The notes beneath the pieces are model-generated. The model had not been told where the DNA came from. It made no database searches and saw only the letters and a program-made list of their open reading frames with translations. Below are positions 1,427 through 19,670 of a stretch of 20,729 nt of DNA, piece after piece. Made by a program: the position numbers and the translations under genes. This DNA is from a virus. The DNA is taken from positions 1-20,729 of IMG/VR virus record IMGVR_UViG_3300037070_003669; one strand, written 5' to 3'. Each line of letters starts with the position of its first letter. The stretch's first letter is position 1.

Positions 1427-2610
1427 AGTTCCGCGACGTGTTCCCGATGTCGGCCCCCGAGCCGGCCGCGCAATTCGAAGTGACGATACCCGCGGAAATG
1501 CGCGAAGCGATGACCGGCGCCGGGTCAATCGCGCCGCGCATCTCACGGTCCCAAGCGCTGCAAGTGCCGGCCGTTTTGCGGGCTCGGAACCTCATCGCGG
1601 GGACCTTGGCGACCCTACCGATTCATGTACGCGACAAGGAACACCGGATCGTTTCACCGACGACCCTATTCGACCAAATCGACCCCGATGTGCCCAACGT
1701 GGTCACGTATGCCAACACGTATGAGGACTTGCTGTTTGAGGGCATCTCCTGGTGGCGGGTGTTGGCGTTCGGCTGGCACGATTTCCCCGTTTCCGCAATG
1801 CACGTCGGAGCTTCACGGGTGTACGTATCGGGGTGGACCCCACCCGTGAACGGGGTGGGCCCGTCATCGAGCGGCCAAGTGTATGTGGACGGCGTACCCG
1901 TCCCCGATAACGAACTGATCCGGTTTGACTCACCAAACCCCCCGCTTTTGACCCATGCCGCGCGGGCGATCCGCTCGGCGTTGTCGTTGGACCAAGCCGC
2001 GTCCCGCTACGCGGCCGAACCGCTGCCGCTCGGGTACTTCACCCCGAAAGAGGGAACCCGACCGAACGAGGATGAAACGCTGATCACGGGGCTGTTGGAC
2101 AAGTGGGAGGAATCCCGGTCCCGTCGGGTGTGGGGTTACGTCGGGGGCGCGTGGGAAGCAAAGGCACTGCAATTCAACGCTGAGCAAATCCAGCTTGCGG
2201 AGCAACGGCAGCATGCGGTTTTGGAAATCGCCCGCGCCGCCGGGGTCGACCCCGAGGATTTGGGGGTTTCGACCACGTCACGGACCTACCAAAACTCCGA
2301 ACAACGCCGGCAGGACATGATTGACTTTACGTTCGCCCCATATCGGGCGGCGTTGGAGCAACGGCTATCCATGCACGACGTGTTGCCGCGCGGATATGAA
2401 GCGAAGGTCAATCTTGATTCCTTCCTCCGAGCCGATACCCTGGGACGCATGAACGCCTACAAGGTCGGGAAGGAAGTCGGCGCGTACACCGCCGAGGAGA
2501 TTCGCGACCTTGAGGACCGCCCGCCGCTCACCGCTGCCCAGCGGGCCGCGGCGACCCCGCCGGCGATGCTCCCCGCCGCCGCACCGATGGAGGTACCGAC
2601 CGATGGGTGA
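1423..2610 (+). CDS. Phage portal protein, HK97-like
   Basis: The portal forms the dodecameric ring at one capsid vertex, through which DNA enters and to which the tail attaches. The 395 aa length and order (directly after TerL, before the protease) fit HK97-type portals. The central and C-terminal part is characteristic: LEIARAAGVDPEDLG, then a Q-N-S-E-Q-R-R-Q-D motif, then FAPYRAALEQRLS. The closing segment around residues 345-375 (GAYTAEEIRDLEDRPPLT) is the usual portal C-terminal helix region. The last 20 residues are Ala/Pro-rich and disordered-looking. The start codon overlaps the TerL stop by 4 bases, which suggests translational coupling. No alternative function seems likely. Confidence 0.93.
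   Translation: MKFRDVFPMSAPEPAAQFEVTIPAEMREAMTGAGSIAPRISRSQALQVPAVLRARNLIAGTLATLPIHVRDKEHRIVSPTTLFDQIDPDVPNVVTYANTYEDLLFEGISWWRVLAFGWHDFPVSAMHVGASRVYVSGWTPPVNGVGPSSSGQVYVDGVPVPDNELIRFDSPNPPLLTHAARAIRSALSLDQAASRYAAEPLPLGYFTPKEGTRPNEDETLITGLLDKWEESRSRRVWGYVGGAWEAKALQFNAEQIQLAEQRQHAVLEIARAAGVDPEDLGVSTTSRTYQNSEQRRQDMIDFTFAPYRAALEQRLSMHDVLPRGYEAKVNLDSFLRADTLGRMNAYKVGKEVGAYTAEEIRDLEDRPPLTAAQRAAATPPAMLPAAAPMEVPTDG
2589..2594 (+). promoter_or_regulatory. Ribosome binding site for the protease-capsid gene
   Basis: GGAGGT lies 8 bases before the ATG at 2603. It selects this start over the ATG at 2510, which would add 31 residues of Arg/Pro-rich translation of the portal gene in the wrong frame. Confidence 0.8.
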
Positions 2611-4402
2611 GTCGATCACGTTCGTTGAGGATGAGGAAGTCGCGCAATCGTTCAAGGTGTCGCCCGAAAAACGGACGATTTCGGGGCTCATGGTTCCGTG
2701 GGGCGAAATCGCGCGGTCGGGCATGGCGGAATGGAAATTCGCAAAGGGGTCGCTTCATTGGTCGCGTGAATCGCGGGTGAAGCTGAACCTAGGGCATGAG
2801 CGCAAGGATACGGTCGGGGTGGCGGTTCGCTTGGAGGACGGCCCCCGCGGCTTAGAGGGAACGTTCAGGGTTGCACCGGGGATCGATGGCGACAAAGCGC
2901 TATCGCTCGCCGGCGAAGGAATCTTGGACGGGCTCTCGGTCGAAATCGACTTCGAAGGTTCGGGGGACGGGTGGGTGCCCGACCCGACCGACGATTCGGT
3001 GCGGTTGGTACAAAGCGCGACGCTACGGGCGTCGGCGCTGACGGGTTATCCGGCGTTCGATGATGCTCGGGTCGAGCACATCGCTGCCGCTCGTGAGGAA
3101 GGCATGAAGATGGACCTTGAGCAAAAGGGAACCACCGAAGAGGAAGGAACGGTCGCGTTCGAAGCGGCCATGGAAAAGCTGGCCGACCGGATCACAACCT
3201 CGCACGAAGCGCTCACCGCATCGCTTGCCACATCGGTCGGTGAGTCAATCGCCGCCGGCATGAAAACGGCGCTTGAGGAAATGGGACCGGCCACGCAGGG
3301 GCCCGGGGCGGTGCGCGCTTCGCGCTTCCAAGTCACCCGCGAGGAACCCGTATACCGGTTCAACGGGCTCGGGCATTCGTTGGTTCGCGACGCGTGGTAC
3401 GCGGCGCGCGAGCACGACGACGACGCAATCGAGCGCCTGAGGAAGTACCGCCAACAGTCCGAGGACATGACCAAGCTGGTGAGCGAGCAGCTGCACTCCT
3501 TCGCGCCGCAGACCACGACCACGGCCGCGCAGGTCGTGCCCCCGGGCTACCGCCCGGACCTGTACGTGACGCAGCTGCAACAGGGCCGGCCGCTTGTTTC
3601 GATGGCGTCCCAGGGCGACTTGGGCAACGCGACCCCGTTCACGGTCCCGACGTTCACGTCGGCCACGGGCGCGACCGCCGACCATGTGGAGGGTACGAAC
3701 CCCTCCGACGGTTCGTTGGCGTTCGGCACCAAGACGGTCACCCCACAGGCCATTTCTGGCCGGCTGGTTTTGTCGCGTGAGATTGTCGACGCGGCGAACC
3801 CGGCAATTGACCAAATCGCACTCGCCGCAATGCGTGAGTCCTACGCGCGGCAGACCGAAGCAAAGGTGTACACGCTGCTCAACGGTGCCAACGGCGCCGG
3901 CGGAACGATCACAACCGGGTTTGTCCCCTCGGGGGCGCAGGCGGCGACTTACGTCGGCTCCTCGGGTACTCCCCCGGCGCTCATCGCCGGGATTCGGGCG
4001 CGGCTGGCCGCGTACCCATTCAACCGGTTCGCATCCCCCAACGCGGTCGCGATGGGGCAGAACGCAACCACGATCCTCGCGACGTCGGTCGACTCGACCG
4101 GGCGCCCCATCTTCCCGAGCGTCGGCGCGGTCAACTCCGCGGGCGTGGGGACGGCCGGGTCGCAAGCGTGGATGGTGGACGGGTTGAGCTTCGTCCCCGC
4201 GTGGGCGATGACCGGGGTGGCAGCCGGCGACTCGCAAATCCTCATCCTCAACTCGGCGGATTTGTGGGTGTGGGAGTCCCCGCTGTTGACGTTCCGGTTC
4301 GAGGAAAAGCAAGGACCCGCGAACATCGAACTCAACGTGTTCGGCTACTTCGCAACGCACCTGCTGCGGCCCGTCGGGCTCTCGGGTATCCGCATCACGT
4401 AA
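2603..4402 (+). CDS. Fused prohead maturation protease and major capsid protein (HK97 type)
   Basis: A single 599 aa frame carries two head-assembly proteins that are usually separate. Residues 1 to about 165 look like an HK97-family (U35) prohead protease: SFKVSPEKRTISGLMVPWGE near the N-terminus, a His65 in LNLGHERKDTVG and a Ser112 in GILDGLSVEI as the expected catalytic His and Ser. Residues about 165-235 are charged and helical (AMEKLADRITTSHEALTASL), like the delta/scaffold region that is removed on maturation. From about 240 to the end is an HK97-fold capsid protein, with VPTFTSATGATADHVEGT, then AISGRLVLSREIVDAANPAI, and a hydrophobic C-terminus. No internal stop or in-frame RBS separating the two parts was seen. 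The start at 2603 is set by a strong RBS and overlaps the portal stop. A hairpin follows the stop. Confidence 0.9.
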   Translation: MGESITFVEDEEVAQSFKVSPEKRTISGLMVPWGEIARSGMAEWKFAKGSLHWSRESRVKLNLGHERKDTVGVAVRLEDGPRGLEGTFRVAPGIDGDKALSLAGEGILDGLSVEIDFEGSGDGWVPDPTDDSVRLVQSATLRASALTGYPAFDDARVEHIAAAREEGMKMDLEQKGTTEEEGTVAFEAAMEKLADRITTSHEALTASLATSVGESIAAGMKTALEEMGPATQGPGAVRASRFQVTREEPVYRFNGLGHSLVRDAWYAAREHDDDAIERLRKYRQQSEDMTKLVSEQLHSFAPQTTTTAAQVVPPGYRPDLYVTQLQQGRPLVSMASQGDLGNATPFTVPTFTSATGATADHVEGTNPSDGSLAFGTKTVTPQAISGRLVLSREIVDAANPAIDQIALAAMRESYARQTEAKVYTLLNGANGAGGTITTGFVPSGAQAATYVGSSGTPPALIAGIRARLAAYPFNRFASPNAVAMGQNATTILATSVDSTGRPIFPSVGAVNSAGVGTAGSQAWMVDGLSFVPAWAMTGVAAGDSQILILNSADLWVWESPLLTFRFEEKQGPANIELNVFGYFATHLLRPVGLSGIRIT

Positions 4403-4409
4403 GGGGTTA

Positions 4410-4440
4410 GGACCGGGGCCCACTTGGCGGGCCCCGGTCC
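4410..4440 (+). terminator. Perfect 12-bp GC hairpin after the capsid gene
   Basis: The arms GGACCGGGGCCC (4410-4421) and GGGCCCCGGTCC (4429-4440) are exact inverted repeats around a 7-base loop. It lies in the 55-base gap between the capsid gene and the next gene. There is no T-tract after it, so it is either a tail-less (I-shaped) terminator, a partial attenuator, or an mRNA-stabilising 3' end that lifts capsid expression above the downstream genes. Confidence 0.65.
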
Positions 4441-4457
4441 ACTTCAAAGGGGGAACC

Positions 4458-4796
4458 ATGGCCGCACTTGCAACTCAGAACCTCGGCGCCGCGGGCGGGG
4501 CGTATACCATCGCGGCCGCAGCGGGCGGCGGGGATACCGCGGAAACGGGCTACGGGGCCGGGGGTTGGTCCTCCCCGACGTTCCTGGTCGGAACGGTCGG
4601 CGCGACCCCAACCACGATCACGATTGCGGGGGTGGCCTACGGGCCGTTTACCACGCAAAACGTCGTCCTTCCGCTATCGGGCGCCGCGGGCGCCACGGGC
4701 GGGCGGGTGAACATCACCTATAACCAGGTCACGTCGGTATCGGTCGGGGTGGTTCGCACCGGTGGCGCGCTCACGGGCGTCACGTTTGGGACGTGA
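4458..4796 (+). CDS. Small head protein, possible capsid decoration protein
   Basis: This is a 112 aa protein rich in Ala, Gly, Thr and Val, with alternating hydrophobic/polar stretches that predict beta-strands (TTITIAGVAYGPF, NVVLPLSG, RVNITYNQVTSVSVGVVRTG). No catalytic motif, signal peptide or TM segment is visible. It sits immediately after the capsid gene and its hairpin, where many siphoviruses encode a decoration or head-stabilising protein. That role is inferred from position and composition only. The start is preceded by the purine-rich AAAGGGGGAA. Its stop overlaps the next ATG. Confidence 0.6.
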   Translation: MAALATQNLGAAGGAYTIAAAAGGGDTAETGYGAGGWSSPTFLVGTVGATPTTITIAGVAYGPFTTQNVVLPLSGAAGATGGRVNITYNQVTSVSVGVVRTGGALTGVTFGT

Positions 4797-4954
4797 TGAC
4801 GATGACCGAACAGGGACATTACGAAACGGTCGGGGACGTCGAAGAGTGGGTATGGGACACCCCCCCGGTCATCACCGTTCCCAAGGGCGAGTTTGACCCG
4901 CGCGACCCCGCGCCCCCCAAGGCCGAGCCCAAAGCAAAGCCGAAGGGGAAGTAG
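4796..4954 (+). CDS. 52-aa hypothetical protein with Pro/Lys-rich tail
   Basis: A short frame starts at ATG 4796 (overlapping the previous stop, TGATGA) and ends exactly one base before the next start at 4955. The N-terminal half is acidic (HYETVGDVEEWVWDT). The C-terminal half is Pro- and Lys-rich (PAPPKAEPKAKPKGK), probably disordered. There is a second possible start, ATG 4802. Small proteins with a basic tail occur in this slot in many actinophages, but no function is known to me. The tight packing on both sides is the main support that it is a gene. Confidence 0.65.
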   Translation: MTMTEQGHYETVGDVEEWVWDTPPVITVPKGEFDPRDPAPPKAEPKAKPKGK

Positions 4955-5482
4955 TTGGCCGACTTTGCCGCGGTCGCCGAGCTTGAAACCTTCATGGGGG
5001 TTTCCCCACTCGGCGCCCGCGGCACGGCCATGCTGGGCCATGCTTCGACCGCCATCCGGCTTTACTGCCAACAGGACTTGGAAGCGACCACGGGCCGGCA
5101 GGAGTCCTACGCGGGCGACCTATGGTTGGCGCGTATCGTCCTCACCCAGCGACCGGTCACCGCGGTTTCGTCGGTCACGGTCGACGGGGTCGCGTTCACC
5201 GATTTCACGTGGTCGCGTTGGGGCCACGTCACCCGCGACGATTTCACGGTTTGGGATACCGGCCCCATCCTCATCACCTACGATTCGGGTTACGCGGTGG
5301 GGTCGGACGAAATGCTCGGGGTTAAGGCCATCGCGCTAGAGGTCGCCGCGCGAGCATTGGGAGGCAACCCGGAAACCTTCGGCATGGAGTCCCAAGAGGT
5401 TCGCGGGCCGACGCCGGCGGTGTTTCTCACCACCGAGGAAAAGCTGTTCCTGAACACGTTCGCAACCGTTGCCGTGGCATGA
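4955..5482 (+). CDS. Head-tail connector (adaptor) protein, HK97 gp6-like
   Basis: This 175 aa protein starts with TTG, directly after the previous stop. It has the layout of HK97 gp6-like adaptors: an N-terminal helical segment (FAAVAELETFMGV, then TAMLGHASTAIRLYCQQDLE), a beta-rich middle with LTQRPVTAVSSVTVDGVAF and ILITYDSGY, then a helix (GVKAIALEVAARALGG) and a loop (PETFGMESQEVRGPTPAVFL). The adaptor ring sits under the portal and receives the tail. The TTG start is preceded by AAGGGGAAG. The family call rests on these recognisable segments and on gene order. Confidence 0.82.
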   Translation: MADFAAVAELETFMGVSPLGARGTAMLGHASTAIRLYCQQDLEATTGRQESYAGDLWLARIVLTQRPVTAVSSVTVDGVAFTDFTWSRWGHVTRDDFTVWDTGPILITYDSGYAVGSDEMLGVKAIALEVAARALGGNPETFGMESQEVRGPTPAVFLTTEEKLFLNTFATVAVA

Positions 5483-5762: not shown

Positions 5763-6236
5763 GTGGCGACATTCCAACCGTTCGGGAAGCTCCCCGCGAA
5801 TATGTTCGGCGGGGAAGCATCCGGCGATGCCGGCCAAATGGACTTCCTCTCGGATGCGATCCGGGCCACGTTGCACACGTCCACATGGACCCCGAACATT
5901 GACACCAATGAAGCGTTCGCCGATGCAACCAACGAACTCTCAACCGCCAACGGGTACACCGCGAACGGGATTGCCATTGGTACAAAAACCGTGTCATACA
6001 ACGCAACCGGCAACATCACGACGTTTGACATGGACGACACCACGGTGACGTGGACCGCGTCGGGTGGGTCGCTGGTGTTCCAGCACTGCGCCTTTCACGA
6101 CGACACCGTTTCAACCGGCCCACCCGTGAAACCGCTCATCGGATACATCGATTGCGGGGCGCAGACCATCACGACCGGGAACACGTTCCTCATCACCACC
6201 GGGGCTAACGGGCTGTTTCAAGCAACCGTGACGTAG
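5763..6236 (+). CDS. Phage structural protein of unknown role (TWTASGG-type)
   Basis: A 157 aa protein starts with GTG 5763, with GAGGGGA about 10 bases upstream. The N-terminus has hydrophobic and acidic helices (QMDFLSDAIRATLHTSTWTP). The rest is a beta-rich domain with NGYTANGIAIGTKTVSYN, DMDDTTVTWTASGG, PLIGYIDCGAQ and a C-terminal GNTFLITTGANGLFQATV. I recognise this pattern from conserved, uncharacterised proteins in head and tail clusters of many tailed phages, so a virion role is likely. Which structure it belongs to cannot be told from sequence. Confidence 0.7.
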   Translation: MATFQPFGKLPANMFGGEASGDAGQMDFLSDAIRATLHTSTWTPNIDTNEAFADATNELSTANGYTANGIAIGTKTVSYNATGNITTFDMDDTTVTWTASGGSLVFQHCAFHDDTVSTGPPVKPLIGYIDCGAQTITTGNTFLITTGANGLFQATVT

Positions 6237-6246
6237 CGGGGGGCCA

Positions 6247-8106
6247 ATGGCCCTCGCACTCACCCAGCGCGACATAACCACATCGACGTCTAACGTCGCG
6301 ACCTACAACGGCAGCGGGGCGATCACCCCCGGCGCCAACGCGCTCATTTTGGTGACGGTCACCAACACCAAAGCTTCGGCCCCCGATACCCCAAGCTCGG
6401 TTGTCGGCTACGGGATCACGTTCACCCAGATTGACGAACAGACGCAGCACACCGTCGCATCGCCCATTCAAAAGGTTTCCGTTTGGCGCGGGGTGTCGGC
6501 ATCCCCGACGTCGGCGCAGCTAACGGTCACCTTCCCCGCATCGCAGACGTCATGCTGCATCGTCGTCGATGAGTTTTCCGGGGTTCGCACCGGGGGCACA
6601 AACGGATCGTTGGCGGTCGGCACCCCCGGGCACAACGCGGCCGATTCAATCGCCGTCGGCGGCGCGCTCAACGTCCCGGCGCTCGGGGCGTTCGAATCGG
6701 GGAGCGGGGTCTATGTTTCCGCGGGGTCGAGCACGAACAACGCGGCGGTTGACGGCAAGGCGGGGATCACCCAGTCGCGCGACTCGGGCATCGGCACACC
6801 GACGAACGGGATTTTCACCGGCTACTCGCTAACGTGGTCGGACACCACCCCGGGCATCGTCATCGCTACCGCAACCAAAAATTGCGGGGTCATCGCGTTC
6901 GAAGTCAAGGTGCCGTCTACCGCGACGACGGTCGACGTATCGACCGCCGGCGCGATCACCTTCACCGGGCAAACCGTGGGGATGCGCCTAGGGCTCGGGC
7001 TCACCGCGGGGGCGATCACGTTCGCCGGGCAGCTGGTCGCGTTCCGGCAGACCCAAAACGTGGTCGCCGGCGCGATCACGTTCACCGGGCAAACGATCAC
7101 GACGACCGTTGCCACCATCGCGAGTGTTTCGACCGCGGGGCAACTCACCTTCACGGGTCAAGCGGTCGCGTTCCGCCAGACCCAAAACGTCACCGGGGGC
7201 GCGATCACGTTCACCGGGCAATCGGTGGGGGTGGTTTCCGCGCTCCCGGTCACCGCGGGGGCGGTCACGTTCACCGGCGGGGCGGTGGGGTTGCGGCAAG
7301 CGCAGGGCGTGAGCGCCGGGGCGATCACGTTCACGGGTCAACCGGTCGGGTTGTCGGTGGGGCTCGGGGTCACCGCCGGCGCGATCACGTTCACGGGGCA
7401 AGCGGTCGCGTTCCGCCAAACCCAAGCGGTCATCGCGGGATCGATCACGTTCGCCGGCCAAACGGTGAGCTTCGGCGGGGCCACGTCGGTCAATGTTTCC
7501 ACGGCCGGCGCGATCACGTTCACGGGCCAACCGACGGGGCTGGTCGTGACGGTCGCGGCGACCGCGGGAACGATCACGTTCACGGGGCAAGCGGTCGCGT
7601 TCCGCGTTGGGATCGGCTCGAGCGCGGGCGCGATAACCTTTGCAGGGCAGACCATTGGGCTCAAGGTATCGGTGGGGGCGACCGCCGGTGCGATCACGTT
7701 CACGGGCCAAGCGGTCGGGATGCGCCAAGCGCAATCGGTCATCGCGGGATCGATCACGTTCACCGGTGGGGCGATCACCATTGGCGCGGGGTCGGTCACG
7801 ATCCAAACCGGCGCGGGGCTCATCACGTTCGCCGGCCAAACCGTCGGGTTGGCGGTTATCTCCGCCGATGTTCTGATCGAAACATTCGAAGGGGTTCATA
7901 CGGGCGGGGCGCCGGCGGGCGGGGTGTTGACCTTGACCGGGGCCCAACTTGCGGGCGGGGCGCCGGTGACCCTTGAGCTTGAAACGGTCGCGGGCGCGGT
8001 CGCGGGCGGTGCGCCGGCGGGAACGGTCCTTGCCGAATCTGTTGAGGGGCCCACCGCGGGGGGTGTTGCCTCGGGGGCTATTCTGATCGAAACCCAGCAA
8101 GGCTAG
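6247..8106 (+). CDS. Long repeat-containing structural protein (possible beta-solenoid fibre or head appendage)
   Basis: This 619 aa protein has three parts. Residues 1 to about 225 form a Ser/Thr/Gly-rich beta domain (LILVTVTNTKAS, SCCIVVDEFSGVRTGG, TPGIVIATATKNCGVIAFEV). Residues 233-541 are 15 near-identical units of 20 residues (three of 23) with the core AGAITFTGQ followed by a variable strand such as AVAFRQTQ. Residues 545-614 are four units of 16-18 residues around GGAPAG. The alternating hydrophobic pattern and constant length suggest a beta-solenoid, one coil per unit. There is no signal peptide, TM or catalytic motif. It lies between head-tail connector genes, so a head fibre, spike or neck appendage is possible. 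Adhesion to host or environmental glycans is an inference. Reverse-strand open frames over the same region are shadows of the repeats. Confidence 0.75.
   Translation: MALALTQRDITTSTSNVATYNGSGAITPGANALILVTVTNTKASAPDTPSSVVGYGITFTQIDEQTQHTVASPIQKVSVWRGVSASPTSAQLTVTFPASQTSCCIVVDEFSGVRTGGTNGSLAVGTPGHNAADSIAVGGALNVPALGAFESGSGVYVSAGSSTNNAAVDGKAGITQSRDSGIGTPTNGIFTGYSLTWSDTTPGIVIATATKNCGVIAFEVKVPSTATTVDVSTAGAITFTGQTVGMRLGLGLTAGAITFAGQLVAFRQTQNVVAGAITFTGQTITTTVATIASVSTAGQLTFTGQAVAFRQTQNVTGGAITFTGQSVGVVSALPVTAGAVTFTGGAVGLRQAQGVSAGAITFTGQPVGLSVGLGVTAGAITFTGQAVAFRQTQAVIAGSITFAGQTVSFGGATSVNVSTAGAITFTGQPTGLVVTVAATAGTITFTGQAVAFRVGIGSSAGAITFAGQTIGLKVSVGATAGAITFTGQAVGMRQAQSVIAGSITFTGGAITIGAGSVTIQTGAGLITFAGQTVGLAVISADVLIETFEGVHTGGAPAGGVLTLTGAQLAGGAPVTLELETVAGAVAGGAPAGTVLAESVEGPTAGGVASGAILIETQQG
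6943..7869 (+). repeat. Fifteen tandem 60-base (three 69-base) coding repeats
   Basis: Unit starts are at 6943, 7003, 7063, 7132, 7192, 7252, 7312, 7372, 7432, 7501, 7561, 7621, 7681, 7741 and 7810. Units 3, 9 and 14 are 69 bases, the others 60. The DNA core GCGATCACGTTCAC is almost invariant, so expansion was by DNA duplication with little later drift. Units 2, 4 and 8 share a nearly identical second half (GTCGCGTTCCGCCA), and other units carry a different second half, giving a partly alternating order. Confidence 0.92.
7879..8088 (+). repeat. Four C-terminal GGAPAG-type repeats
   Basis: Units are at 7879-7932, 7933-7980, 7981-8034 and 8035-8088 (54, 48, 54 and 54 bases). They encode variants of E-x-x-x-G-x-x-x-GGAPAG-x-V-L. 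They are distinct from the preceding ITFTGQ units and end five codons before the stop. Confidence 0.75.
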
Positions 8107-8139: not shown

Positions 8140-8451
8140 ATGGGATTCACGGCAACCAGCATGCAGAAAACCAAACTCGCGATCAAGGTCGCGGGGTTGA
8201 AAATCGCCGCCGCGTCGGGTTCGGCGGAAAACGCGGGGGCGCAAGCGGTGGCGCGGGCGATGCAAGCAAAGGCGCCGGTCGATACCGGGAAGCTCCGCGC
8301 ATCTATTCATGCCGACTCATCGAGCGCGGTTGCCGACGCCCCTTACGCGCTGTATGTAGAACCGTTCGCCGCGGCCGCGGCGATGTCGGCTGCTCACGAA
8401 GTCGAAGCGACCATGATTGCCGTGTTTCGCGCGGCGCTAGGAGGTAAGTAG
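8140..8451 (+). CDS. HK97 gp10-like tail completion / head-tail joining protein
   Basis: A 103 aa protein contains the family hallmark KAPVDTGKLRASI at about residues 43-57, preceded by a helix (GAQAVARAMQA) and followed by DAPYALYVEPF. These are the core of HK97-gp10-like neck or tail-terminator proteins, which join a finished tail to the head. Position directly before the major tail protein agrees. ATG 8140 is chosen; ATG 8161 is also in frame and would remove seven residues. The 33 bases before it contain no other feature. Confidence 0.82.
   Translation: MGFTATSMQKTKLAIKVAGLKIAAASGSAENAGAQAVARAMQAKAPVDTGKLRASIHADSSSAVADAPYALYVEPFAAAAAMSAAHEVEATMIAVFRAALGGK
8440..8445 (+). promoter_or_regulatory. 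Ribosome binding site for the major tail protein
   Basis: GGAGGT, inside the end of the preceding gene, is 8 bases before GTG 8454 and supports the non-ATG start of this highly expressed gene. Confidence 0.75.
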
Positions 8452-8453
8452 AC

Positions 8454-9101
8454 GTGACGAAGTACGCCGGAAGAGATTTGGTTTTCTACATCGCGGCCCC
8501 GAACGTCGCGGGAACCTTGACATCGGTGGCGTCAACCGACCTGTTCACGACCTCGGTCGCGCACGGGTTCGTTGCCGGCGATGCGGTGTTTTTCGGGACG
8601 CTCACCGGTGGCGCGGGGCTGGTCACGGGTAAGCGTTATTACGTCATCGCGGCGGGGCTCACGACCACCGTGTTCGCGGTTTCCGCAACGCTCGGCGGGG
8701 CGTCGTTCGATCACACCACGAACGTCACCGCCGGCACGGTCGCGAAGTTCACCGCGGTCGGCCAAGTGACGTCGCTCGGCACGGCAGGATCACAACGTGA
8801 CCTCATCGATGCATCCGCCTATGGCGATGCGTGGAAGGATTACGTTGTGGGCCAACAGGACGGGTCCGAGGTCGACGTTGAGGTCGCGCTCGACCCCATC
8901 CTTGCCGGGCATCTCGCCATGAAGTCGGCCTATAACGCTGGCGTCCCCGTGACGTTCGGCATGAACCATGCCGCGTCCACGTTCGATATCGCGTTTCCCG
9001 GGCTGGTTACAAAGTGGGCCCGCGGCGGCGACCTTGATGGGGTTATGAAGGGCGAGGGCACCGTCAAGATTCTCAACCCAGGAGTGACCGACACCCCGTA
9101 G
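8454..9101 (+). CDS. Major tail protein (tail tube subunit) with an inserted beta domain
   Basis: At 215 aa this is the tube protein expected just before the tail assembly chaperone. Residues 1-22 (MTKYAGRDLVFYIAAP) and 100-215 (GQVTSLGTAGSQRDLIDASA, DYVVGQQDGSEVDVEVALDP, GEGTVKIL) form the tube domain. Residues about 23-99 are a separate module with AHGFVAGDAVFF, GKRYYVIAAGLTTTVFAVSA and TAGTVAKF. I recognise this as a small domain found in many phage structural proteins. Placed between strand 1 and the rest of the tube fold, it is probably displayed on the tail surface. The start is GTG with a strong RBS. Confidence 0.85.
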   Translation: MTKYAGRDLVFYIAAPNVAGTLTSVASTDLFTTSVAHGFVAGDAVFFGTLTGGAGLVTGKRYYVIAAGLTTTVFAVSATLGGASFDHTTNVTAGTVAKFTAVGQVTSLGTAGSQRDLIDASAYGDAWKDYVVGQQDGSEVDVEVALDPILAGHLAMKSAYNAGVPVTFGMNHAASTFDIAFPGLVTKWARGGDLDGVMKGEGTVKILNPGVTDTP

Positions 9102-9766: not shown

Positions 9767-11477
9767 CACGTTGACGGTTGAGGTCGACGCCAAAACCACC
9801 AAGTTCACCGCGGGGACAAAGACGGCGTTGGTCGGGCTCGCCGCGCTGGGGGCCGGCGCCGCGTATGCGTTCGGGCAATTTGAGGAATCGGAAAAGGTCG
9901 TTGCCCAAACGAACGCGGTCCTCAAGTCGACCGGCAACGCCGCGAACGTCACTGCGGATCAGGTCGGCGACCTCGCGACGTCGTTGTCGGAAAAGTCGGC
10001 CATTGACGACGAAGTGATTCAGTCCGGCGAAAATATGCTGCTCACGTTCAAAAACATCCGCAACGAAACCGGCGCCGGCAACGACATCTTCAATCAGGCA
10101 TCGACCGCCGCGCTGGACATGGCGGCGGGGATGGCTGCGGCATCCGGCGGCGCGGTCGACATGAAGTCGGCGTCGATCCAGCTGGGTAAGGCGCTGAACG
10201 ATCCGGTCGCGGGTATCTCGGCGTTGTCGCGGGTCGGGGTCACGTTCACCGAGCAGCAGAAAAAGCAAATTCAAACCATGACCGACGCGGGCGATACGGT
10301 CGGCGCGCAAAAGGTCATCTTGAAGGAGCTTTCCTCCGAGTTCAAAGGCTCCGCGGCCGCGGGGAAAACGTCGAGCGCGGCGATGTCGGTTGCGATGGGG
10401 AACCTTGCCGAGTCGGTCGGTGGGGTGTTGGCCCCGGCGATCAATGGGGTGCTCGGGTTGGCGACAAAGTTTTTCGGGTTCCTCACGAAGTACCCCGCCG
10501 CGCTGGTGGTCGTTGCCGGCGCGGTCGCCGCGGTCACGGTCGCGCTCATCGCGAACAACGTCGCCACGTCCCTCGCCAACTCCGAAGGCATTGTGTTCGC
10601 GGCGATCACCGCGGCAAAGACGGCCGCGACCCTTGCGATGGCCGCCGCGCATTGGGTGGCGGTCGCCGCGCTGGGGGCGGTTACCGCTGCACAATGGTTG
10701 TGGAATGTCGCCATGACCGCGAACCCCATCGGGCTCATCATCGTCGCGATTGCCGCGGTGGTCGGGATCATCGTCCTACTCGTGAAGCACTTCGGTTTGG
10801 CCGACGACATCATGCGGGTGCTCAAGGCAACGGTCGGGGTCGTGTGGGGGTTTATCAAGGCAACCATCGGGACGGTCGTGAAACTCGTTGTCGGGTATTT
10901 CAAGCTATGGATAGCGGCCATCGGGTTTGTGGTCAAAGCCGTAAGCGCCATCGCCGGCGTCGTGGGCCGGGCGTTCGCCGCGGTGTACAACGCGATCAAA
11001 AACTGGCTGGGGGCCGCGGCGCGGTTTATCACCGGGTTTTGGGCCGCGGAGATTCGGTTTTTCGCGGGGCTCGGCGGCAAGCTCGCGCGCGCCGGCGGGA
11101 AGATGTGGGGTTGGCTGGTCGACGGGGCAAAGGCTGCGGTTAACCTTGTCGTCGGGGTTATCAACCGGATGATCCAAGCCCTCAACGCGGTACAAATCCA
11201 CGTGCATATCAACCCCCCCGGCCCCGGACAAATCGACTTCGATTGGTCGGGGCTCGGCATCCCCTACGTACCGTCGCTCATGTACGGCGGCACCGTGGCG
11301 CGAACGGGGTTGGCGGTCGTGCATGAGGGCGAGCGATTCTCCGGGGTCGGCGGGGGATGGGGGGCGGTCAACGTCTATGTTTCCGGTTCGGTCATCGCGG
11401 AGCACGACCTAGCCGAAGCGGTGCAAAAGGCGTTGCTGAAATCCAAACGGCGCTCTGGGGTGCTGGGGTTGTCGTGA
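9753..11477 (+). CDS. Tape measure protein
   Basis: This 574 aa protein sets tail length, so a fairly short tail is expected. The N-terminal part is helical and Ala-rich (FGQFEESEKVVAQTNAVLKS, LGKALNDPVAGISALSRVGV, FTEQQKKQIQTMTDAGDTVG), a pattern common in tape measures. The middle has several hydrophobic segments (about residues 245-270, 285-345 and 370-400), including PIGLIIVAIAAVVGIIVLLV. The C-terminus contains IPYVPSLMYGGTVARTGLAV and VHEGERFSG, a conserved tail-tip end in this family. The gene follows the chaperone pair, as expected, and its stop overlaps the next GTG start. Confidence 0.93.
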   Translation: MPTISTLTVEVDAKTTKFTAGTKTALVGLAALGAGAAYAFGQFEESEKVVAQTNAVLKSTGNAANVTADQVGDLATSLSEKSAIDDEVIQSGENMLLTFKNIRNETGAGNDIFNQASTAALDMAAGMAAASGGAVDMKSASIQLGKALNDPVAGISALSRVGVTFTEQQKKQIQTMTDAGDTVGAQKVILKELSSEFKGSAAAGKTSSAAMSVAMGNLAESVGGVLAPAINGVLGLATKFFGFLTKYPAALVVVAGAVAAVTVALIANNVATSLANSEGIVFAAITAAKTAATLAMAAAHWVAVAALGAVTAAQWLWNVAMTANPIGLIIVAIAAVVGIIVLLVKHFGLADDIMRVLKATVGVVWGFIKATIGTVVKLVVGYFKLWIAAIGFVVKAVSAIAGVVGRAFAAVYNAIKNWLGAAARFITGFWAAEIRFFAGLGGKLARAGGKMWGWLVDGAKAAVNLVVGVINRMIQALNAVQIHVHINPPGPGQIDFDWSGLGIPYVPSLMYGGTVARTGLAVVHEGERFSGVGGGWGAVNVYVSGSVIAEHDLAEAVQKALLKSKRRSGVLGLS

Positions 11478-13333
11478 CGGTCACCTACACGGTCGAAGTC
11501 GATTTCGCTACCCCGCTCCTGGGAACGCCCGCGACGTGGACGGACGTCACGGCATACGTCCGAAATTTCTCCACCCGCCGGGGACGGTCCCACGAACTCG
11601 GGAGGATGCAAGCCGGCGAAGCGTCGGTGACGCTCGACAACCGCGACCGGCGCTTCGATCCTTCGAACACCGCCGGCCCGTATTACCCCAACGTCGTTCC
11701 GATGCGGCACCTTCGCATACGCGCCACCGAGGGCTCGACGTACGATTTGTTCCGCGGGTTTGTTGAGGACTGGGGCCAACAATGGTCCGGCCCCGCCCCG
11801 CTGGGGCTCGGGGATGCGGTGTGCGAGGTTCACGTGGTCGATGCGTTCAAAGTGCTCAACCTAGTTGACGTCGGGTCCTACCAAGCCGCGGTGTTGGGGG
11901 ATGACCCGCGCCACTACTTCCCGCTCGATGAGGGGCTGGTTGTTCCCGAGCTTGTGAACCGCGGATCATACGGTTCGGACGGCAATCTCCCAAACTTTGA
12001 ATCGACCGGCGCGACCGTCGCCGCCGGCCCGCTTTACGGCGGGGGCACGGCGATCACGGCCGGGGCAAGCGGGACGTTTACGGCCTATCAAAACTCCGCG
12101 CTTGACCCCGCGGCCAAAAAGGAATTTCTAAACCTGTGGACGGTCGAATTCTGGTTGTACAACGATTCGACCGCGACGCCGACGCAACAGCTGGTTCGTA
12201 TGACCGACGCAAACTCCAATGAGTTCGCCCATGTGGGGTTGAGCGCGACCGCGGATAAGTTGTATGTCCACCTCGCCACGGGCGCGAACGTGTTCACGAC
12301 CAACACCATCGCGACGAACACGTGGGTACATGTGGCGATGGTCCGAACCGCGATGACGAACGTGGACGTGTATACGAACGGGGTCTATCTGGAATCGATC
12401 ACCACCCCGACCCCGGACGGTACCGGGGGCGCGCTTGCGAGCATCCTCGCCGTGGGGCAATCCGCCAGCACCCGGATTGCCCACGTCGCGTTGTACACCT
12501 ACCCGCTCGCCGCGGCGCAAATCGCGACCCACTACGCGGCCAACCTCGGGACGCTGGTCCCGCAATCCGTCGATAGCGCAATCGCCGCGGTGCTTGACGC
12601 GATTGGGTGGCCGGCGGGGCTGCGGTCGCTGGGGGCTTCCACGTACATGACCCAACGCTACGAACCCACGGGGACGGCGCTCGGGACGTTGCTCATGCTG
12701 GCCGAAAACACCGACGGCGGGATTCTGTTCGCCACCGGTGCGGGGGTGTTGCGGTTCCGTTCTGCGGCCGACCTCATGGATGACGTGAGCGCCGCGGCGT
12801 CGTGGGGCGACTCTTCGGCGGAGTTGAAATATTCCGGGCTCACCTTTGCCTATGACGACGCCGACTTGTACACCGAGGTTCGCGCGACCGCCCCCGGGCT
12901 CACGGATGCGGTCGCGTCGGACGCGGGGGCCACGACGACCTACGGGCCCCGCATCCTTGAAACCGACGGGGGCATCCTGGGGGACCAAAACCAACTCAAC
13001 GACCGCGCATCCGGTTACCTCTTGCGATACAAGGCGCCGGCGCTGCGCCCCGAAACCCTGGTCGCGATCAATTCAAGCACCCAACCCACCCGGACAACCG
13101 AACTGTTTACCTCCGAGATTGGGCGTCGGCTCACGGTCACCCGCCGGCCCCCCGGCGGGGGTTCGGCCATCACCATCACGGCGATCACCGAGGGCGTGAG
13201 TTACCAGACCGTCGAGCAGCTGGCCCAAATCCGGGGGACCCTAAACTTGGTCCCCGCGTTGGATGCAATCCCGTGGATACTTGCGGATGCGACGTACGGG
13301 GTGCTCGGCTCGACGACGGACCTGGGCTACTAG
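11474..13333 (+). CDS. Multidomain minor tail protein with a LamG-like domain
   Basis: A 619 aa tail-tip protein. The start is GTG 11474, overlapping the tape measure stop (GTGA); an upstream ATG at 11357 would only translate tape-measure sequence out of frame. Residues 1 to about 145 resemble the N-terminal domain of actinophage minor tail proteins (WTDVTAYVRNFSTRRGR, AGEASVTLDNRDRRFDP, DLFRGFVEDW). Residues about 147-355 look like a concanavalin/LamG jelly-roll: HYFPLDEG, WTVEFWLYND, NTWVHVAMVRTAMTNVDVYT and HVALYTYPLAAAQIATHYA. The rest (to 619) is a second tail domain with LYTEVRATAPG and TVTRRPPGG. LamG modules often bind glycans, so host-surface recognition is plausible. The protein may replace two or three separate tail-tip proteins. 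Confidence 0.85.
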   Translation: MTVTYTVEVDFATPLLGTPATWTDVTAYVRNFSTRRGRSHELGRMQAGEASVTLDNRDRRFDPSNTAGPYYPNVVPMRHLRIRATEGSTYDLFRGFVEDWGQQWSGPAPLGLGDAVCEVHVVDAFKVLNLVDVGSYQAAVLGDDPRHYFPLDEGLVVPELVNRGSYGSDGNLPNFESTGATVAAGPLYGGGTAITAGASGTFTAYQNSALDPAAKKEFLNLWTVEFWLYNDSTATPTQQLVRMTDANSNEFAHVGLSATADKLYVHLATGANVFTTNTIATNTWVHVAMVRTAMTNVDVYTNGVYLESITTPTPDGTGGALASILAVGQSASTRIAHVALYTYPLAAAQIATHYAANLGTLVPQSVDSAIAAVLDAIGWPAGLRSLGASTYMTQRYEPTGTALGTLLMLAENTDGGILFATGAGVLRFRSAADLMDDVSAAASWGDSSAELKYSGLTFAYDDADLYTEVRATAPGLTDAVASDAGATTTYGPRILETDGGILGDQNQLNDRASGYLLRYKAPALRPETLVAINSSTQPTRTTELFTSEIGRRLTVTRRPPGGGSAITITAITEGVSYQTVEQLAQIRGTLNLVPALDAIPWILADATYGVLGSTTDLGY

Positions 13334-13344
13334 GAGGGCGTTAG

Positions 13345-13890
13345 ATGGCGTGGACGAACCCGAGGACGTGGACAACCTCCGAGGTTGTGACCGCGGCCAT
13401 GCTGAACACGCACGTACGCGACAACCTCAATTTTTTGAACACGGCCCACGGCGTATCGGTGTACAAATCCGCGAACCAAACCGTGCCGTCGGGGAACACC
13501 GACGTGGTGACATTCAACACCGAGCTATTCGATACCGATGCCTACCACGACACCGTCACGAACAACTCGCGGCTCATCGTGCCGGCGGGGCTCGGGGGCA
13601 TCTACATGATTTCGTTCAAAGCCCAGCACGACGCCGACGCGGCGAACCATAACGCCATGGGCATAAACATTCGGCTCAACGCGGCCGGGAACAACGCGAC
13701 CGGCACGTTGTTGGAAACGGTACGCGGCACGGGCCATACGAACATCGGCGGGATTCAGCTGGTCACGTACCAACAGCTATCGGCGGGGGACTACGTCGAA
13801 GGGTTTTTTATCTCGACCTCCGAGGCGCGCGACGTGACGGGGTCGGATCAATCCAATACGCGCTTCACGATGTTGCGGATGGGTGCATGA
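13345..13890 (+). CDS. Tail fibre / receptor-binding protein with C1q-like C-terminus
   Basis: This 181 aa protein begins with a conserved tail-anchor segment (RTWTTSEVVTAAMLNTHVRD, residues 7-26) that I know from many actinophage tail proteins. The remainder is a beta-sandwich-like domain (DVVTFNTELFDTDAYH, RLIVPAGLGGIYMISFKAQH, AGDYVEGFFISTS) resembling C1q/TNF-like jelly rolls that trimerise at fibre tips. It is likely the host-binding tip. GGAGGG six bases before ATG 13345 supports the start. Its end overlaps the endolysin start by 4 bases. Confidence 0.8.
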   Translation: MAWTNPRTWTTSEVVTAAMLNTHVRDNLNFLNTAHGVSVYKSANQTVPSGNTDVVTFNTELFDTDAYHDTVTNNSRLIVPAGLGGIYMISFKAQHDADAANHNAMGINIRLNAAGNNATGTLLETVRGTGHTNIGGIQLVTYQQLSAGDYVEGFFISTSEARDVTGSDQSNTRFTMLRMGA

Positions 13891-18475: not shown

Positions 18476-18807
18476 ACAGGTCCCAAGCGACCAAACGCGC
18501 CGATAGGCTGTTTTCGGAACGGGTGCGGGCGGTCGGGGTGTGCCAAATCAATGCAGGTCCTACCCGGTGTAATGGCGCGCTTCAATGTTGTCACATCTTG
18601 TCGCGTCGGTATCGGGCGATACGTTGGAACGCCGGCAACGCGCTCGCAGGGTGTGCGGCTCATCATCTGTATTTCACGAACCACCCATTGGAATGGGAAG
18701 AGTTTTGCAGGGATCAAGGGGTCGCGTGGGACGCGCTCCGACGAACCGCGTTGAGCGATCCACCAATGGACCCCTTCGCGGTCATTGAGGAATTGGAGGT
18801 CGTATGA
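18472..18807 (+). CDS. HNH/NinG-like nuclease
   Basis: A 111 aa protein starting with GTG 18472 (GTGA overlap with the transglycosylase stop). The zinc and HNH-like residues are Cys24 and Cys33, CCHILSRRYRAIRWNAGNAL (His41, Asn56), then Cys61 and HH64-65 in GCAAHHLYF. This resembles the NinG/recombination-endonuclease branch of ββα-metal proteins more than the packaging HNH at the right edge. Role: nicking or resolving recombination intermediates, perhaps with the ERF protein. An upstream ATG at 18298 lies inside the previous gene and is rejected. Confidence 0.72.
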   Translation: MNRSQATKRADRLFSERVRAVGVCQINAGPTRCNGALQCCHILSRRYRAIRWNAGNALAGCAAHHLYFTNHPLEWEEFCRDQGVAWDALRRTALSDPPMDPFAVIEELEVV

Positions 18808-19670
18808 CGTGGGCCGATGATGCACGGGCTGCAATCGTGGCGGCCGAACAGCTGCTCGATGTGGCGGCGGCCGAAATTGCCGATTTGCAAACCGAGTTGG
18901 CTGAATGCAAGGCGGCGAACGATCACCCACCGGAAGCTCGAAGCGTATTGGGCTTCGCCGGCCCCGACCCGACCGGCAAGGCTCGGGTTTTGCGGGTGTA
19001 TCTCAACCCGGGCGACCCCTTCCCAAAGCCGGCCCCAGGGGTGTTGCATTTCGTCACGTACAAGGGCCCCAGCGATCACGCGCAACGGGCGAGCGAGGCA
19101 AAGGCGTATGCGGCCCCCTTGCTGCTCGGGTTTCACCATGAGCCCGAGGGCCCAGGGGGGCCCGATTACACCCCGACCGCGTACAAAGCCCATTGGGTGA
19201 CGCTCACGGCCGAACTCAAAAAACAGGGCGTGGCGAACGTCCGAACGGTGTGGGTGATGATGGCGGCGAGCTTTACCGGAAGCGCAAGCGATCACGCGAA
19301 CGCCTATTACCCCGGCGACGGGTTGGTGGATGTCGTCGGGGCCGATGGTTACGATTGGTGCGGGTGCAAAACGGGGGGTACGGGCTATGCATCCGGCGCA
19401 CATCGGGGCTTTGCCACGGTGTTCAAGGGAACGCGCGATTTCGCAAAGGCCCACGGCAACAAGCCCGTTGCGATAGGTGAGTTCGGTACCCCGCAGCGCA
19501 AGGACGGCAACGAATCGGAGCGCGTCGCATGGATCAATGACGCCGTCGCGGTTATCAAGGCCGACCCGAGTTTCGTTGCGGCGTGCTACTTCCAACACGG
19601 CATGCCGGCGTTTGCTTGTGAATGGACCCTGAAAGGCGCAAGTTTGGACGCATACGCTGCGGCATTGTGA
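18804..19670 (+). CDS. GH26-like glycoside hydrolase with N-terminal helix
   Basis: This 288 aa protein begins with a helix of coiled-coil type (residues 5-38, IVAAEQLLDVAAAEIADLQT). Residues 45-288 look like a TIM-barrel glycosidase of GH26 or a related clan: Glu113 in LLLGFHHEPEGPGG as acid/base, VRTVWVMMAASF and YYPGDGLVDVVGADGYDWCG as barrel strands, and Glu226 in VAIGEFGTPQ as nucleophile. Substrate cannot be read from sequence; mannan-like, capsular or other surface glycans are possible. There is no signal peptide, so it is either released on lysis or attached to the virion through the N-terminal helix. Start and end overlap or abut neighbours. Its location among nuclease and small Cys-rich genes, not tail genes, is unusual. 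Confidence 0.75.
   Translation: MTWADDARAAIVAAEQLLDVAAAEIADLQTELAECKAANDHPPEARSVLGFAGPDPTGKARVLRVYLNPGDPFPKPAPGVLHFVTYKGPSDHAQRASEAKAYAAPLLLGFHHEPEGPGGPDYTPTAYKAHWVTLTAELKKQGVANVRTVWVMMAASFTGSASDHANAYYPGDGLVDVVGADGYDWCGCKTGGTGYASGAHRGFATVFKGTRDFAKAHGNKPVAIGEFGTPQRKDGNESERVAWINDAVAVIKADPSFVAACYFQHGMPAFACEWTLKGASLDAYAAAL

Follow-up and report, generated by a model that had tools for sequence, protein, structure and literature searches.

A soil-phage gene in a 20,729-base virus record (the window, by which we mean the whole stretch of DNA analyzed) encodes a protein with 15 tandem TGQ repeats. We propose that this protein is probably the shaft or adhesive part of a virion-borne adsorption fiber and that its gene lies in an exchangeable cassette with a phrog_644 gene. 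The relevant features of the window are:

4955..5482, + strand: head-tail adaptor (phrog_442); PHROG match, context
5763..6236, + strand: phrog_644 partner gene, 157 aa; phrog_644 match at E=8e-17, proposed fiber anchor or adaptor
6247..8106, + strand: TGQ-array protein gene, 619 aa; open reading frame, repeat count, and family searches
6247..6939, + strand: N-terminal beta domain, residues 1-231; leave-one-out HMM
6943..7869, + strand: 15-unit TGQ array, residues 233-541; core count, predicted three-stranded beta-solenoid
7063..7131, + strand: unit 3, 23 aa; core spacing
7432..7500, + strand: unit 9, 23 aa; core spacing
7741..7809, + strand: unit 14, 23 aa; core spacing
7888..8103, + strand: C-terminal tail with AGGAPxG / EGPxAGG motifs; by eye, low AF2 confidence
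8140..8451, + strand: HK97-gp10-like tail completion/neck gene; Pfam/PHROG match, context
8454..9101, + strand: major tail protein; Pfam/PHROG match, context

The reading frame at 6247-8106 is uninterrupted and contains 15 [ILV]TF[AT]G[QG] cores, spaced 20,20,23,20,20,20,20,20,23,20,20,20,20,23 aa apart. This bears out the layout of the original prediction, in which units 3, 9, and 14 are 23 aa long and the other 12 are 20 aa long, and the protein is a TGQ array, i.e., tandem 20-aa units with a T-x-TGQ core. Shuffling the residues of the protein (20,000 trials) gave a mean of 0.01 cores and a maximum of 2. The AGAITFTGQ core is strongly conserved, as had been noted, while the rest of the unit has diverged; "near-identical" was too strong a description for units whose mean identity is 56% (aa) and 62-64% (DNA). 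The best-matching pair, units 8 and 13, reaches 87% identity, and most pairs fall below 78%. Near-invariance of the core DNA was likewise overstated, as the exact 12-mer GATCACGTTCAC is present in 8/15 units; a ninth copy, at 6414, encodes ITFT in the N-terminal domain outside the array. The reported partly alternating order of unit types was not significant (lag-2 test, p=0.20), and we rejected a higher-order alternating structure, the signal for which was weak (lag-5, p=0.04 uncorrected). A second contig (L001) carries the array gene unchanged, with one difference across 13.8 kb, so the array is not a one-off assembly artifact.

For 13/15 units the nearest relative lies within the same array, and the units have synonymous codons in common at 60% versus 44% expected, from which we infer a lineage-specific origin. 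An earlier suggestion of recent repeat expansion thus holds in part: within-lineage expansion is supported, and the divergence of the units contradicts "recent". Variation in length and phase, also suggested, found no support. The number of units is the same in the window and the near-identical L001, and length differences between near-identical marine arrays amount to a few residues at most (281/283, 569/572), with few close relatives sampled. Units of 60 and 69 nt are multiples of three and cannot shift the frame, so gain or loss of a unit would alter length only and not switch expression. Within this small sample of close relatives, the window array shows neither mark of a phase- or length-variable surface protein.

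The layout is not new, contrary to the original prediction. A degenerate pattern of two T-x-TGQ cores 20 aa apart matched 63 viral contigs, nearly all of them true arrays, which places TGQ arrays in about 60 viral contigs other than the window; a pattern scan of genome contigs gave a single prophage-like match, in a Hyphomicrobium MAG. The reading frame and core residues are conserved across dozens of these phages. The array is named in no library or paper that we found (Pfam, PHROG, NCBIfam, literature), and a literature search for the repeat motif returned no papers. The window protein matched no Pfam, PHROG, or NCBIfam family above threshold, with no enzymatic or binding domain recognized, and tblastn against 50,697 phage records gave no matches. 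When the array, the N-terminal domain, phrog_644, and a marine array were compared with PDB sequences, nothing useful emerged, and searches around the gene detected neither an RNA family nor a promoter. The window protein belongs to a widespread, uncatalogued set of probable repeat fibers.

Outside the array, a leave-one-out HMM built from 8 homologs recovered the N-terminal domain of the window protein with E=7e-19 (Z=100,000). Homologs of this domain are either fused to TGQ arrays, as in soil phages L080, L058, and L092, which share the architecture of the window protein, or encoded by a separate gene near the array (L085, L088, L099, L025). The same HMM did not detect GMA1 gp28 or MiniFlayer gp8. 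The C-terminal tail resembles, by eye, the tails of L085, L103, and a protein of phage L003 with a different repeat.

The full-length AF2 model was poor (mean pLDDT 58.7), reaching pLDDT 75-93 over residues 1-110 only, and a fold search with it was uninformative. A monomer model was also made of window units 4-13, for which AF2 was given 20 in-register homolog rows from other phages. This model has pLDDT 75.8 and pTM 0.70, with pLDDT 82-92 over units 4-7, and places three short strands in each 20-aa unit, at TFT, VAF, and NVT. The strands recur every 20 aa, in agreement with the earlier proposal of a beta-solenoid with one coil per unit, and the array is probably a narrow three-stranded solenoid of this kind, subject to the caveat that repetitive input can lead AF2 to over-predict solenoids. 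Foldseek of the array model against the PDB gave no significant match (E at least 0.08), so the predicted coil per repeat has no significant counterpart among solved solenoids; the top neighbors were mostly solenoids and tailspikes, none significant. The best viral fold match was a predicted phage protein (E=6e-4). The beta-helix tailspikes LKA1 gp49 and HK620 also display beta-solenoid architecture on virions, which in the window protein is predicted; unlike it, they have irregular coils and enzymatic grooves, with no sequence relation and a fold match that is not significant. The phi29 head fiber gp8.5 is likewise a repeat-built fiber, but going by the title of a PNAS 2011 paper cited in PMC12796354, it is a supercoiled helix-turn-helix and not a beta-solenoid.

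The phrog_644 gene of the window is 62-85% identical in 18 other contigs. We counted arrays within 8 kb of close phrog_644 loci that had at least 1.5 kb of downstream sequence. A TGQ array was present near 14/14 such loci versus 0/22 control loci, downstream of phrog_644 in 13 and just upstream in one (L101). These represent ~13 independent loci, since L102 nearly duplicates L103 and the window has its twin in L001. Four remote phrog_644 homologs had no TGQ array.

In L080, L058, L092, L025, and L088, phrog_644 is 73-80% identical to that of the window, and the portal and major capsid proteins (MCP) have no or almost no similarity. The downstream adhesins vary among phages while phrog_644 stays conserved: the L092 cassette carries a BD-FAE esterase, and those of L080, L090, and L099 carry pectate-lyase-type beta-helix look-alikes (by eye; no Pfam match among those tested). 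These comparisons show phrog_644 and a solenoid-type adhesin to be an exchangeable cassette that appears to move between unrelated phages. In the sister phage L003, the major tail protein is 80% identical to that of the window, phrog_644 is absent, and the slot holds a protein with a different repeat: the slot changes by replacement of the gene instead of by variation in length or phase.

The slot protein of L003 (6454-7827, 457 aa) has nine QAG-x-LFAP units with a period of 20 aa, which include variants of 25 and 23 aa. Its EGPxAGGxASG tail is similar to that of the window protein, and it appears to be a second, unrelated-looking type of 20-aa array. Its N-terminus is similar to that of the window protein by eye; it failed the N-domain profile test, and we claim no homology. 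In L080, the neighbor of the TGQ gene encodes a small protein with GxYSPxxxIAG repeats (4179-4553), a further short-period array within a cassette.

Adsorption is the best-supported role for the array because of the adaptor and tail-fiber neighbors of marine arrays and the MiniFlayer adsorption module described below, and this linkage agrees with the surface appendage that had been predicted. Directly 3′ of marine TGQ arrays lies either a BppU_N gene (L026, L046, L050, L070, L082) or a gene for a GP4 gp77-like fiber-tail adaptor (L028, L040, L051, L072). Among ten ~105-aa genes adjoining marine arrays, nine match a fiber adaptor, L069 being the only one that does not, and tail-fiber or fiber-assembly genes adjoin the arrays in L039, L050, L070, and L072. 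Marine TGQ-array proteins (L026, L028, L050, L051, L072) and EBPR siphovirus 2 gp72 have 20-21-aa T-x-TGQ repeats and adjoin fiber-adaptor or tail-fiber genes. They differ from the window protein in their N-terminus (some start MLGFGPLAAAPLA) and in a GSFTLTGQ-type core, and we found no phrog_644 partner for them. The window array is flanked by phrog_644, which has no Pfam match, and the HK97-gp10-like gene, with neither BppU_N nor gp77. Since BppU_N/gp77 adjacency is seen in nine marine loci and not in the window, it is not required for TGQ-array fibers.

The satellite MiniFlayer (OQ357865) offers a related arrangement. Its "hypothetical" gp6 is a phrog_644 homolog between the MCP and head-to-tail adaptor genes, in a block that its discoverers called a putative adsorption module, and its virion was described with short tail fibers (PMC10690885). 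As in the window, the phrog_644 homolog in gp6-gp9 follows the MCP and precedes a large protein with short-motif repeats, ahead of the head-to-tail adaptor. That protein, gp8, differs in having LamG domains and a VxPMxGSG repeat and no TGQ array; it is a possible neck-binding fiber of the satellite. Among cultured phages, we found none that combines phrog_644 with a TGQ array.

Such a fiber could sit on the neck, head, or tail. It may be a neck/collar or head-attached fiber that, like a neck passage structure (NPS), aids adsorption from the neck or capsid, a reading we consider possible while leaning against it. The cassette lies between MCP/adaptor and neck/major tail protein genes in the window, L080, L025, L088, L090, and L097. 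The array of L088, L090, and L097 is directly followed by a gene for a phrog_442 head-tail adaptor that matches nearly the whole profile. The lactococcal NPS of the 936 group and TP901-1 follow the same logic: the collar at the head-tail connector is a head/neck-associated adhesion device that keeps a conserved N-terminus and swaps CBM, beta-helix, or esterase-type ends (PMC6669499). By sequence, phrog_644 would correspond to the conserved attachment part and the varying adhesins to the swappable distal modules. However, NPS combine a BppU-like N-terminus and a coiled-coil stalk in one protein, whereas the window has a separate phrog_644 and a beta-solenoid array. Neither the window protein, including its N-terminal domain, nor phrog_644 matches BppU_N, and we therefore term the window protein NPS-like and not a member. 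Operon position is also not virion position, and close relatives of the repeat and its partner lie in tail-gene regions, so the claim of a head or neck fiber as opposed to a tail fiber is not established; in MiniFlayer the partner lies between capsid and adaptor genes, yet the virion has tail fibers.

A more specific proposal, speculative and in our view unlikely, is a mobile, hitherto undescribed neck or head adhesion device in which phrog_644, itself a collar or docked on one, bears interchangeable beta-solenoid fibers, so that unrelated soil phages could exchange surface-binding rods as a two-gene cassette. Its fibers would be TGQ arrays and possibly other 20-aa repeats, e.g., the QAGxLFAP array of L003. 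The window phrog_442 adaptor matches profile positions 84-236 only; it apparently has no N-terminal extension of the kind present in its counterparts in L088, L090, and L097, where a collar might dock on that extension.

Also rather unlikely is a standard fiber of the tail tip or tail side whose gene was relocated upstream of the neck genes. It would account for the tail-fiber, tail-fiber-assembly, and fiber-adaptor neighbors of marine arrays and for the short tail fibers of MiniFlayer. In Gordonia, Tsukamurella, and Mycobacterium phages, homologs of phrog_644 also occur after the tail genes, adjoining minor tail proteins; in the Gordonia isolates Gibbles and Sixama they lie ahead of minor tail proteins or of large proteins near lysin genes, with Gibbles gp36 directly 5′ of a minor tail protein gene. 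Against this, placement of the cassette between head and neck genes is seen repeatedly, and the usual place for such genes in the window is already occupied by a minor tail protein (11357-13333) that has a LamG/ConA-like, lectin-like domain and by a further candidate receptor-binding gene (13345-13890), whose 181-aa product resembles C1q/TNF-type receptor-binding heads by eye and has no Pfam match.

We consider it improbable that the gene is non-virion cargo encoding a secreted or cell-surface adhesin or a matrix-binding protein. As modules, both the N-terminal beta domain and the solenoid are generic and resemble those of secreted adhesins, and the L092 cassette esterase has an apparent signal-like N-terminus (by eye), but the window protein starts MALALTQRDITTS with no evident signal peptide, its gene lies among same-strand morphogenesis genes, and its relatives adjoin fiber adaptors. 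As an explanation of the repeat region, disordered filler or an artifact of assembly, which the low confidence of the full-length model might suggest, is very improbable given the same array in an independent contig, a confident in-register prediction, and the conservation of frame and core residues in dozens of phages.

Under the adsorption-fiber reading that we prefer, each of the 15 stacked TGQ units would form one coil of a narrow, three-stranded beta-solenoid rod, which would measure ~7 nm per chain at the usual rise of 4.8 Å per coil, with the N-terminal beta domain acting as a joint or adhesion module. The phrog_644 protein, encoded immediately upstream, may attach the fiber to the particle, as their linkage suggests. 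The two would be exchanged as a cassette, often beside polysaccharide-active or beta-helix genes, and swap or divergence of the adhesin, not repeat-number switching, would tune host range or surface binding. This suggests what TGQ arrays and phrog_644, both abundant and unannotated types of phage gene, may do, and it yields the testable rule that phrog_644 marks an adsorption cassette. If it is true, many capsid-to-tail "hypothetical proteins" of soil phages could receive an adsorption-device annotation, and short, regular solenoids could offer simple natural rods for study.

Several further observations concern the window and one relative. At 2510-4402 of the window, an S78-like prohead protease and the major capsid protein are fused in one ORF. 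A weak GH26-like glycoside hydrolase match lies 3′ of the lysis region (18804-19670; E=5e-5, above the cut-off). In L025, a 1165-aa protein (1878-5375, − strand) contains TGQ units along with LAGxGAFAA-type repeats and, internally, a copy of the N-terminal domain, an apparent case of modular shuffling; its N-terminal region resembles a G8/beta-helix domain by eye.
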